A stretch of DNA of 45,113 nt from Candidatus Polarisedimenticolaceae bacterium (lineage in GTDB: Bacteria > Acidobacteriota > Polarisedimenticolia > Polarisedimenticolales > DASRJG01): the NCBI GenBank assembly GCA_036376135.1, contig DASVAW010000039.1:1-45113 (forward strand). The letters are read 5' to 3'. Positions 9,503-45,113 of this stretch are shown piece after piece; the stretch's first letter is position 1; every line of letters starts with the position of its first letter. Both the position numbers and the translations under genes were made by a program. The notes beneath the pieces were generated by a model. The model did no database searches. It was not told the DNA's origin and was given only the letters and a program-made list of their open reading frames with translations.

Positions 9503-11977
<2,475 letters not shown>

Positions 11978-12074
11978 AGGCCCCTCGCTTAGAGTTGTTC
12001 TTGGGGTTGGCCGCCTGCGGGACGCAGACGCTTCAGCACCCGTCGTTCCGAGGACCCGCCCTCGAAACCGTGTC

Positions 12075-12104
12075 CTTATAGCAGCGAAGACGGCGAGGTG
12101 TCGA
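12075..12104 (-). promoter_or_regulatory. Sigma-70-type promoter of the hppA operon
   Basis: Minus strand: -35 TCGACA (12099-12104), 18-bp spacer, -10 TATAAG (12075-12080), five of six consensus bases in each box. Predicted start near 12068 gives a leader of about 90 nt before the ATG at 11977, which has a GAGGGG site. The rest of the 233-bp divergent gap shows nothing else I can support. Confidence 0.65.
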
Positions 12105-12210
12105 ACGCGGAAAGGGCCGAACGAACCTCCGTCAAACCGCGTCTTCGACGCACTTTCGCCGCGGCCCCTTCCGCCCCGCGCTAGCATCGCCGCATCCGAA
12201 GGGGTGACCC

Positions 12211-13086
12211 ATGCCGAAACGCCCGCTCGCCCTCGCCGTCGCGTTTCTCCTCGCCGTCGGCCACGCTCCGGCGGCCGGTCTCGAGCCCGAGCAGAAGCTC
12301 CAGCTCGCCAAGCTCGACCTCGGGCTGATCGCCCTGCTGGTCGCCGGCTTCGAGGGGGTGATCCCCGAGGACCCGAGCGGCACGGGGTCGGAGAAACGCG
12401 GACCCGAGATCGACGGGCTCCAGAGCGTCCCGGATCTGCTGAAGTACCTCGGGCCGGTCCGCGCGGTGCGCGTTCCGCTCAGGGATCCCTGGGGGCACAC
12501 CTACGGCTGCGCCGTCACGGAGCAGCACCTCGTCCTCGTGAGCGACGGCCCCGACGGCACCCCCGACCTGGACTGGGGCACGGACGACGCGGCCGTCGAC
12601 GCCGTGGTCCAACGCCTCACCTCCGGGAGCACGTTGGTGCGCGACGACATCGTCTGGATCGACGGGAAGACGTTCGGCGCCGATCCCGAGCGGGCGTCGA
12701 AGGAGGCGATGGCGTCGCTGCGCTCGATCGCCGTGGCGGTGGAGTCGTACGCCGTCGACGCGGATGTCTACCCCTCGTCCGAGGGGCGCCTGGTGCCGAT
12801 CGACGCGGTGACGGGAATGCTCGAGCCGGCGTACATCAAGTCGGCGCCGCGCACCGACCCCTGGGGGTTCCCGATCCTCTTCGTCTCGGACGGCAGCCAC
12901 TACCTGCTCGTATCGCACGGAGCGGACGGCCTGCTCGAGCAGACGTACACGATCGAGGGCTTCGTCCTCGGCGACGGAAAGAACCGCGGTCGCGGCGCGG
13001 TCGGCAGGCCCGGGGACGATCTCGTGTTCTGCGACGGCTCGTTCGCCCAGTGGTACGAGCCGGTCGACGCTGCGGACGAGCCGTGA
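12211..13086 (+). CDS. Secreted protein with two GspG/pseudopilin C-terminal-like units
   Basis: 291 residues with a cleavable-looking signal peptide (about 1-22), not a prepilin leader. Two similar halves follow. The first carries LRDPWGHTYGC then VSDGPDGTPDLDWGTDD; the second carries RTDPWGFPILFVSDGSHYLLVSHGADG. DPWG-x(1-3)-Y followed by SxGxDG is the signature of type II secretion major-pseudopilin (GspG) C-terminal domains, which bind Ca2+ in that loop. The N-terminal pilin helix is missing in both units, although each is preceded by a short amphipathic helix (for example LRSIAVAVESYAVDADVYP). So it resembles two fused pilin heads without the shaft. Its stop overlaps trpF (GTGA). ATG has an AGGGGTG site. 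Confidence 0.75.
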   Translation: MPKRPLALAVAFLLAVGHAPAAGLEPEQKLQLAKLDLGLIALLVAGFEGVIPEDPSGTGSEKRGPEIDGLQSVPDLLKYLGPVRAVRVPLRDPWGHTYGCAVTEQHLVLVSDGPDGTPDLDWGTDDAAVDAVVQRLTSGSTLVRDDIVWIDGKTFGADPERASKEAMASLRSIAVAVESYAVDADVYPSSEGRLVPIDAVTGMLEPAYIKSAPRTDPWGFPILFVSDGSHYLLVSHGADGLLEQTYTIEGFVLGDGKNRGRGAVGRPGDDLVFCDGSFAQWYEPVDAADEP

Positions 13087-39814: not shown

Positions 39815-41206
39815 ATGCGTCGCCGAATCCTCGCCCTGCTCGTGGTCGCGATCCCGGCGCTCGGCTTCGCCGCCGAGGCGCCTCCGGCCCAGCGCATTCT
39901 CGACGCCGCGCTCGCCGACTCGACGGCCTACGACCGGCTCGCGCACCTGTGTGATCGGATCGGCCATCGACTTTCCGGTTCCCCCCAGCTCGAGCGCGCG
40001 GTGACCTGGGCCGAGGCGACGCTGAAGGCCGACGGCGCCGACCGCGTGTGGAAGGACGACGTTCCGGTCCCCGTCTGGATCCGCGGCGAAGAGCGCGGTC
40101 GGATCGTGGCGCCGGTCGAGCATCCGATGAAGCTCCTGACCCTGGGCATGAGCCTGGCGACGCCGCCGGAAGGGATCACCGGAGAGGTGGTGATGGCGGC
40201 GAGCCTCGACGAGCTGCGGGCGCTGGGGGAGAAGGTCCGGGGGAAGATCGTCTTCTTCAATCGTCCGATCGAACGGAACGGCGAAGGGGAGCGCGGCTAC
40301 GGGTTCGCCTCGAACCTGCGTTACGCGGGGGTGATCGAGGCGGCGCAGCTCGGCGCCGTCGCGATGATCATCCGATCGCTCGGCACCGTCGACTATCACC
40401 TCCCGCACACCGGCACGACCGCCTACGACGAGACCAAGCCCCGCGTCCCCGCGGCGGCGATCACCGCGGAGGACGCCGGACGCATCGCGCGTTTCCTCGC
40501 CGCCGGCGAAACGGTGCGGGTGCACCTCGTCCTGCGCCCCGAGCGGCGTGCGGACGGCCCGTCGCACAACGTCCTCGCGGAGATCCGCGGCCGGGAAAAA
40601 CCGGACGAGGTCGTCGTCCTCGGCGGGCACCTCGACTCGTGGGACGTCGGCTGCGGCGCGCAGGACAACGGTGCCGGCGTCGTCGTCACGATGGAGACGA
40701 TCCGCCTCCTCAAGAAGCTCGGCCTTCGGCCGCGTCGCACGATTCGCGCGGTGCTCTTCACCAACGAGGAGAACGGCGGCCGCGGCGGCAAGGACTACGC
40801 CACGCGATACGCCGCCGCGATGGACCGGCACGTGGCCGCGATCGAGATCGACAGCGGCGGCGCACGGCCGACCGGATTCGGCGTCTCGGCGGGGACCGGA
40901 GGCCTCGAGATCGTCTCCCGCCTGGCGGCGCCTCTCGCCGTCATCGACGCCGACACCGTCAAGGAGGGCGGCGGCGGCGCGGACACCGGTCCGATGCGCA
41001 AGCACGGCGTCCCGCTGCTCGGTCTGCGGCCGGATACGACGCGGTACTTCGATATCCACCACACCGAGGCCGACACGCTCGACAAGGTCGATCCCCACGA
41101 CCTGGCGATGCTCTCGGGGGCGATGGCGGTGATGGCCTTTTCCCTCGCCGACGCGGAGGAGACCCTGCCGCGCATCCCGGAGGACCGGCGCGACTCCCGC
41201 CGCTAG
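39815..41206 (+). CDS. Secreted M28 family zinc aminopeptidase with PA domain
   Basis: 463 residues. A signal peptide covers about 1-20. A protease-associated domain (about 120-235) is inserted ahead of the catalytic M28 core. The zinc ligands and catalytic acid are visible: H272 in GGHLDSWD, D284 in AQDNGAG, E318/E319 in TNEENGG, D346 in EIDSGG and H416 in DIHHTEADT. It removes N-terminal residues from peptides outside the cytoplasm. A GGGAGG site precedes the ATG at 39815. The stop TAG lies at 41204-41206, overlapping the palindromic element and, by four bases, gluQ. Confidence 0.93.
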   Translation: MRRRILALLVVAIPALGFAAEAPPAQRILDAALADSTAYDRLAHLCDRIGHRLSGSPQLERAVTWAEATLKADGADRVWKDDVPVPVWIRGEERGRIVAPVEHPMKLLTLGMSLATPPEGITGEVVMAASLDELRALGEKVRGKIVFFNRPIERNGEGERGYGFASNLRYAGVIEAAQLGAVAMIIRSLGTVDYHLPHTGTTAYDETKPRVPAAAITAEDAGRIARFLAAGETVRVHLVLRPERRADGPSHNVLAEIRGREKPDEVVVLGGHLDSWDVGCGAQDNGAGVVVTMETIRLLKKLGLRPRRTIRAVLFTNEENGGRGGKDYATRYAAAMDRHVAAIEIDSGGARPTGFGVSAGTGGLEIVSRLAAPLAVIDADTVKEGGGGADTGPMRKHGVPLLGLRPDTTRYFDIHHTEADTLDKVDPHDLAMLSGAMAVMAFSLADAEETLPRIPEDRRDSRR

Positions 41207-42120
41207 AAAAAGGGGCCTGGCCCCTTTTTCACGCGCCGGAGGTCGAAATCGGCGATGAGGGAGCGCGCCGGGGTGGGAGTGGGTTCCGGACGAAGGCCGA
41301 GCCACGCGGCGAGTCGGCCGACCACCGCTTCCGGTCGCCAGCCGGCATCGCGGAGCGCCGCCAGCGTGGTCCCGTCGTGGCGTTTCGAAAGGCGCACGCC
41401 GTCGGCGCCGAGCAGCAGGGGTGCGTGGGCGAATCGGGGCGCCGCGAACCCGAGCGCCCGGTACAACGCGAGTTGTCGCAGGGTCGAGACGAGCAGGTCC
41501 TCGCCTCGCACCACCTCGGTGATCCGCATCGCGGCGTCGTCCACCACAACCGCGAGCTGATAGGCGGGAGTTCCGTCGTTCCTCCACACCACGAAGTCGG
41601 TGGGAAGGGGCGCCACGAAGCGGCCGAACACCGCATCGTCGAACGCCGACGCCGCTTCGGAGGCCATGCGAAAACGCCACGCCGGGCGCCGACCCGGCGG
41701 CGCGTCGGCCCGGTCGCGGCAGGTTCCCGGATACGGCGTTTCGTCCCCGGGTTGCTGCGGGGCGCTCGCCGCCGCCGCGACATCCTTCCTCGAGCAGAAA
41801 CACGGGTAGACATGCCCCGAGGATCTCAGCCGCTCCAGCGCGTCCCGATACCGATCGAACCTCGCGCTCTGAACGTACGGGGCGTACGGGCCGCCGACGT
41901 CGTACCCCTCGTCCCAGTCGAGGCCGAGCCAGCGGAGGTCCTCCGCGATCCGCTCCGCCGCCCCCGGGCGCACGCGCGGTCCGTCGAGGTCCTCGAGACG
42001 CATCACGAACGCCCCGCCCTGCGAGCGCGCCGAGAGCCAGGCCAGAAGCGCGGTGGAGGCGTTCCCGAGGTGAACCTCCCCCGTCGGGCTGGGGGCGTAA
42101 CGACCGCGCGTCCCGGTCAC
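41203..42120 (-). CDS. gluQ: Glutamyl-Q tRNA(Asp) synthetase
   Basis: 305 residues: a GluRS catalytic core without the anticodon-binding domain. HLGN (17-20) is the HIGH motif, LSKRHDG the KMSKS equivalent, and C107-F-C109 with C134 (YPGTC) form the zinc site. It charges glutamate onto queuosine of tRNA-Asp. The GTG start overlaps the CAP gene stop by four bases. The last eight residues KKGPGPFF and the stop codon are encoded by a palindrome (41206-41230), so the natural C-terminus (near LRRV) has been extended or replaced. Otherwise the sequence is complete. Confidence 0.92.
   Translation of the reverse strand: MTGTRGRYAPSPTGEVHLGNASTALLAWLSARSQGGAFVMRLEDLDGPRVRPGAAERIAEDLRWLGLDWDEGYDVGGPYAPYVQSARFDRYRDALERLRSSGHVYPCFCSRKDVAAAASAPQQPGDETPYPGTCRDRADAPPGRRPAWRFRMASEAASAFDDAVFGRFVAPLPTDFVVWRNDGTPAYQLAVVVDDAAMRITEVVRGEDLLVSTLRQLALYRALGFAAPRFAHAPLLLGADGVRLSKRHDGTTLAALRDAGWRPEAVVGRLAAWLGLRPEPTPTPARSLIADFDLRRVKKGPGPFF
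41206..41230. repeat. Perfect palindrome at the M28/gluQ junction; bidirectional terminator or REP-like element
   Basis: Arms GAAAAAGGGGCC (41206-41217) and GGCCCCTTTTTC (41219-41230) with a one-base centre. As RNA it would form a GGGGC/GCCCC stem with A and U tracts on both sides, which suits a terminator for both convergent genes. It also encodes the GluQ C-terminus, as noted there. Confidence 0.8.
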
Positions 42121-45036: not shown

Positions 45037-45113
45037 AGGGACAGTCCCTCTTTTCCCTGTCTTCCATGCGCCGGGACGTGCGCTTAGGGGCATGGAAGAC
45101 AGGGAAAAGAGGG
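45037..45113. repeat. Palindrome and long inverted repeat after pruA, cut by the window end
   Basis: First comes AGGGAC-A-GTCCCT (45037-45049), 9 bp after the pruA stop. Overlapping it, a perfect 24-bp inverted repeat has arms 45046-45069 and 45090-45113 with a 20-nt loop; the right arm ends exactly at the last base given. Internal CTCTTTTCCCTGTCTTCC has low GC for this DNA. It may be a REP/MITE-like element or a terminator, or a fold-back artefact at a contig end. Confidence 0.7.

Follow-up and report, generated by a model that had tools for sequence, protein, structure and literature searches.

A perfect palindrome at the overlapping ends of gluQ and an M28 peptidase gene

The window, by which we mean the whole stretch of 45,113 nucleotides analyzed here, contains two convergent genes that share a four-base overlap of stop codons, and a perfect palindrome that begins within this overlap. 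The features are as follows.

39815 to 41206, plus strand: gene for an M28 peptidase of 463 aa, facing gluQ (Peptidase_M28, PF04389)
41203 to 42120, minus strand: gluQ, tRNA glutamyl-Q(34) synthetase, 305 aa (GluQRS, TIGR03838, above cut-off)
41203 to 41206, unstranded: CTAG, in which the convergent stops overlap (M28 TAG at 41204-41206, plus strand; gluQ TAG at 41203-41205, minus strand)
41206 to 41230, unstranded: palindrome with GGGGCCTGGCCCC core, probably a singlet copy of a dispersed REP/TIR family
Adjoining 41206 to 41230: upstream tag of the window copy, CGCTAG, degenerate against the consensus ~TTTGNAAG
41206 to 41229, minus strand: eight palindrome codons, AAA AAG GGG CCA GGC CCC TTT TTC, giving KKGPGPFF, the GluQRS C-terminus

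A sequence-only reading of this DNA had named both genes, let a perfect palindrome start on the final base of the M28 stop codon and ascribed the last eight residues of GluQ to it. The profile matches agree with both gene names, and the other two claims hold as well: the arms are fully complementary (GAAAAAGGGGCC-T-GGCCCCTTTTTC, 12+1+12, 41206-41230), the palindrome takes its first base, 41206, from the end of the M28 TAG, and the minus strand reads KKGPGPFF and then stops at 41203-41205. No other perfect 12+1+12 palindrome occurs in the window, the number expected from composition being 0.016 per window, and dinucleotide shuffles gave no match to it within 3 mismatches. An Rfam scan of the window and a plasmid BLAST with the junction as query returned no match.

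The gluQ tail is not the ancestral one

The catalytic-domain match of GluQ in Pfam covers residues 5-270, and the KKGPGPFF tail lies beyond it. Orthologous gluQ genes continue for 11-22 more residues of a loosely common type after an F-D/S-L motif, with tail lengths of 14 to 25 residues across the order, and in each of the eight relatives whose tail can be read this end is unlike KKGPGPFF. A tail shared with distant orthologues would have told against a mobile palindrome; the comparison of C-termini reveals none, and an ancestral KKGPGPFF is ruled out (0 orthologues with such a tail). The native gluQ end must therefore have been replaced or displaced by the palindrome. A proline at tail position 10 is common in the orthologues and also falls within the palindrome, a coincidence that may be due to chance.

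A dispersed palindrome family with copies bounding a RAYT gene

The genome of origin comprises 4.38 Mb in a fragmented assembly of 179 contigs. Searching it for further copies, as had been proposed, yielded about 37, so the palindrome is not unique: 33 sites lie within 3 mismatches of the 23-mer, with 0 in the reversed control, and 37 within 1 mismatch of the core AAAAGGGGYCWGRCCCCTTTT. Full copies consist of an upstream tag with the consensus ~CTTTGNAAG followed by AAAAAGGGGCCTGACCCCTTTTC. The window copy differs from the TIR core by 1-2 mismatches over 21-23 nt, i.e., it is the same repeat family, and its symmetrical GGGGCCTGGCCCC core recurs in three other tagless copies (C30:17917, C158, and C167).

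The link to a transposase comes from contig C30, where a RAYT (Y1_Tnp) gene at 11733-12437 (PF01797, E 2.8e-14; NF047646, 77.7 bits, just below the cut-off of 80) is bounded by inverted full copies of the family, 32 nt long and 94% matching. These repeats carry GGGGTCAG, which fits the GGGGWSAS form of TIRYT repeats. The protein has the motifs NHAH and YVERNP, the latter fitting the Y---NP motif of Y1 HUH transposases (defined in PMC6006769). A Pfam search of it for a second domain, such as a C-terminal HTH/DnaA-like one, found none at E 0.001. In addition, the family forms six head-to-head doublets (C35, C50, C104, C129, C152, and C164; starts 42-56 nt apart), whose two copies have the same relative orientation as the ends of the C30 gene. 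These doublets have the arrangement of REPINs, and the window copy is a singlet.

Taking these sequence comparisons together, we put at roughly 85% the probability that the gluQ palindrome is a lone member of a family of short palindromes dispersed through the genome, and that other members of this family flank a resident HUH/Y1 RAYT gene of the TIRYT type. The window copy may not be a directly transposed unit, its tag being degenerate, and for tagless copies another origin could be conceived.

Two RAYT genes of this genome end within their own repeats. The frame of the C30 gene stops inside its right-hand repeat (NLKEKGA-stop; L027:2917-2948), so the element also writes the C-terminus of its transposase. 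A second RAYT gene, on C179 (L028:2554-3457), has a perfect 25-nt inverted repeat, TTAAATAGGGACAGCAACCTATTTC, at both ends, and its stop codon likewise sits within the right-hand repeat.

Copies at gene ends and palindrome-free junctions in relatives

Scoring of codon usage, counted by eye from the tables, gives about 16 loci with convergent neighbors, about 10 with neighbors in tandem, 1 inside a gene, and 3 at contig ends; no family locus lies clearly between divergent genes. Convergent gene ends thus hold most of the 37 sites, and there the stop codons are 1-15 nt away from the palindrome. Where a single copy separates convergent genes, the spacer is 22-33 nt, barely more than the palindrome itself, and the element ends often supply part of a neighboring stop codon. 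Both the supply of stop codons and the placement at gene ends match published REP behavior (PMC3733652). For example, the gene to the left of the copy at G000:C8:17994 (L007) ends in RRAIL-stop, as opposed to RKAIVPGLL-stop in the relative G001; here about four residues seem to have been lost to the tag of the element, which would also supply the new stop.

Three syntenic convergent junctions, C104, C129, and gluQ/M28, are palindrome-free in relatives. The C104 spacer measures 74 in the genome of origin versus -4, 7, and 32 in G001, G002, and G004, and the C129 spacer 82 versus 5, 12, and 34. Relative to G001, each has gained ∼77 nt, the size of a doublet, and on this comparison both doublets read as clear insertions. 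The convergent gluQ/M28 arrangement is kept in the same three relatives, with a spacer of -4 in the genome of origin, the palindrome lying within gluQ, and of -4, 7, and 7 in G001, G002, and G004. The G001 junction shows the same CTAG and the same M28 end, CCGCCGCTAG, and the core was found nowhere in these three genomes.

The sequence-only reading had suggested a mobile palindrome inserted at a gene end, where it created a new C-terminus. The mobile nature and the new C-terminus are both upheld, by the dispersed family, the inverted copies around the RAYT gene, the palindrome-free junctions, and a gluQ tail unlike that of its orthologues. Insertion as the mode of arrival may not stand, the data also allowing a replacement of existing codons.

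Insertion or overwriting

Such a replacement would be a variant of the mobile-palindrome explanation, differing only in the mode of arrival: the palindrome would have overwritten 24 existing gluQ nucleotides by a templated process, leaving the gene length unchanged. Proposed routes are the annealing of single-stranded REP DNA at a partly matching site and short-tract gene conversion. Counted from the FDL motif, the tail has 14 residues both in the gluQ under study (FDLRRVKKGPGPFF) and in that of G001 (FDLDALGGVTDRIV), the two genes also sharing the CTAG overlap. G001 is, however, the sole genome of the same family in this comparison, and with tails ranging so widely in the order, equality with one relative may be a coincidence. 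GluQ identity to the nearest relative is no higher than 65%, which leaves the locus without an empty site at the nucleotide level.

The sister copy inside malate synthase (C117:4857-4877; L018:1502-1522) adds a second case. It is read in frame as EKGSGPFF over a conserved GSGPYF motif, KALL EKGSGPFF YLPK standing where native forms read, for instance, ARGSGPYFYLPK (e.g., ARGSGPYF), and there is no indel against 13 close orthologues. Base by base, eight orthologues match the element at 11-17 of 24 positions, compared with 24/24 in the gene itself. Within the scored part of malate synthase, the codons TTT and TCA occur only in the palindrome copy. Given the rest of the gene, such a codon choice has a probability of ∼1e-6, a figure that is optimistic because AT-ending codons are enriched just outside the core as well, over a few codons, which weakens the codon argument somewhat. 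Replacement in place is the simplest reading of the malate synthase sequence.

Equal tail length in gluQ together with the gap-free malate synthase copy thus makes overwriting, rather than insertion, possible, although the doublets at C104 and C129 were clearly inserted. For the gluQ copy, we give overwriting slightly less than an even chance. The broader proposal, that the family spreads by length-neutral overwriting of stretches that partly resemble it, with the gluQ and malate synthase copies as two cases, is more tentative, and we consider it somewhat more apt to be wrong than right. Gene conversion as the way REPs evolve is an older suggestion (Higgins et al. 1988, as cited in PMC3116915 and PMC3733652), to which overwriting, if true, would lend sequence-level support; alternatively, it would support a route in which single-stranded REP DNA made by the transposase anneals at replication forks. 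Either way, the gap-free malate synthase copy is a concrete, checkable case for the unsettled question of whether REPs spread by insertion or by overwriting.

A putative two-way terminator within coding sequence

The RNA hairpin folds strongly on the two strands, with -21.2 and -24.6 kcal/mol (z = -3.8 and -4.5), and five T follow each stem in both directions, the structure of an intrinsic terminator. The palindrome would likely act as a two-way terminator. Judging from structure and position, it may plausibly be terminator and coding sequence at once, the other option raised by the sequence-only reading.

Could it be just an intrinsic terminator, unlinked to mobile DNA, that formed where the two genes converge and came to be read as part of gluQ by drift? 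The site between convergent stops, the G-C stem, the U/A tracts on either side, and the strong fold would all suit this explanation, yet independent terminators would have differing stems. A sequence-neutral pattern, AAAAGSSSN(1-8)SSSCTTTT, which fixes only the A/T tracts and the first stem pair, finds 29 sites in the genome (reversed control, 3), and all 29 belong to this palindrome family with one stem-loop sequence; moreover, the same sequence bounds a transposase gene. We therefore regard independent origin as very unlikely, and reject an ordinary terminator as the sole explanation on the 29 of 29 hairpins found with this pattern. A chance palindrome or an assembly artifact, the latter favored by the fragmented assembly and by three family copies near contig ends, is next to negligible given the empty shuffles and reversed control and the intact state of M28 and gluQ, both syntenic with relatives.

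Returning to the mobile palindrome, we envisage that the transposase, or its single-stranded intermediates, would have brought a copy to the point where gluQ and M28 lie tightly packed. gluQ would then read through the element to the stop that it shares with M28, acquiring the KKGPGPFF tail, because 24 nt keep the frame and no stop occurs on the element's 'CAG' strand. Whichever gene is transcribed, the G-C stem and five U in the RNA would serve as a two-way terminator, or have been kept as such. A transposase-linked palindrome would in this manner alter the C-terminus of a tRNA-modification enzyme and offer a putative two-way transcription stop at an overlapping junction. Such tails call for caution, as they are not to be taken for conserved protein sequence.

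Relation to known repeat systems

The closest known elements are TIRYTs/TIRtrons of RAYT group 1 (Di Nocera et al. 2013, PMC3733652), covered as subclass 2.1 TnpA-REP in PMC6006769, with the repeat consensus GGGGWSAS, TIR dimers, occurrence in Acidobacteria, and a self-complementary TIR family in S. maltophilia, ORF 1152 (PMC3733652). Like these, the present family has a Y1 tyrosine transposase gene bounded by GGGGWSAS inverted repeats, here GGGGTCAG, the repeats also exist as singles and dimers, and some TIRs overlap the end of the transposase gene. It differs in the tag next to the palindrome (~TTTGNAAG) and in having members at the gluQ end and inside malate synthase, and its sequence is not among the families named in the portion of the TIRYT literature considered.

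With REP/REPIN and RAYT systems (PMC3116915, PMC8266576) it shares a short palindrome in tens of copies, inverted doublets, a position adjoining gene 3′ ends, and the RAYT link, but it has ∼37 copies, a nearly perfect stem, and no GTAG tag: in place of the canonical REP foot GTAG/GTGG stands the consensus ~TTTGNAAG, with CTAG in the window copy. Rickettsia palindromic elements resemble it in being read in frame within host proteins (as summarized in PMC3733652). In that account, those of R. conorii either bear a CGTC tag or are longer, and no transposase is linked to CGTC repeats, whereas the present repeats are carried by a RAYT gene. Bidirectional intrinsic (Rho-independent) terminators, finally, likewise place a G-C stem with an A tract on one side and a T tract on the other where genes converge; what sets the palindrome apart is one repeated, transposase-linked sequence with gluQ codons in its stem.

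The sequence-only reading had considered a gene-end palindrome that writes a C-terminus unusual. This cannot be maintained, since REPs have already been described at ORF ends and as the source of stop codons or C-terminal residues (PMC3733652). The unusual side is the gap-free coding copy; otherwise, the event is of a known kind.

Related palindromes and other inverted repeats

Near-identical palindromes are present in two other genomes, with 18 copies in G006, which is Ca. Polarisedimenticola svalbardensis of the same order within the Acidobacteriota (exact sequence identity with its record), and 22 in G008. Most G006 copies have a different upstream tag, GGCG (loci L249-L281 for both genomes), and RAYT homologues in G001, G006, G008, and G090 have their own inverted repeats, similar in A-tract/GGGG design and different in sequence. 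The pattern in G006 and G008 suggests that tag and transposase may change together while the core stays.

Among the matches listed, the exact core appears in many other phyla (L075-L150, e.g., L098, L122, and L130). Olsenella and relatives, also among the matches listed, have the core with longer outer arms (TTGCCT...AGGCAA), terminator-like in appearance. At the contig end (window positions 45046-45113), AAATAGGGACAGTCCC is followed by an inverted repeat of 27 nt (96%), TIR-like as in RAYT elements; a 31-nt stretch of this region occurs once in its own genome.
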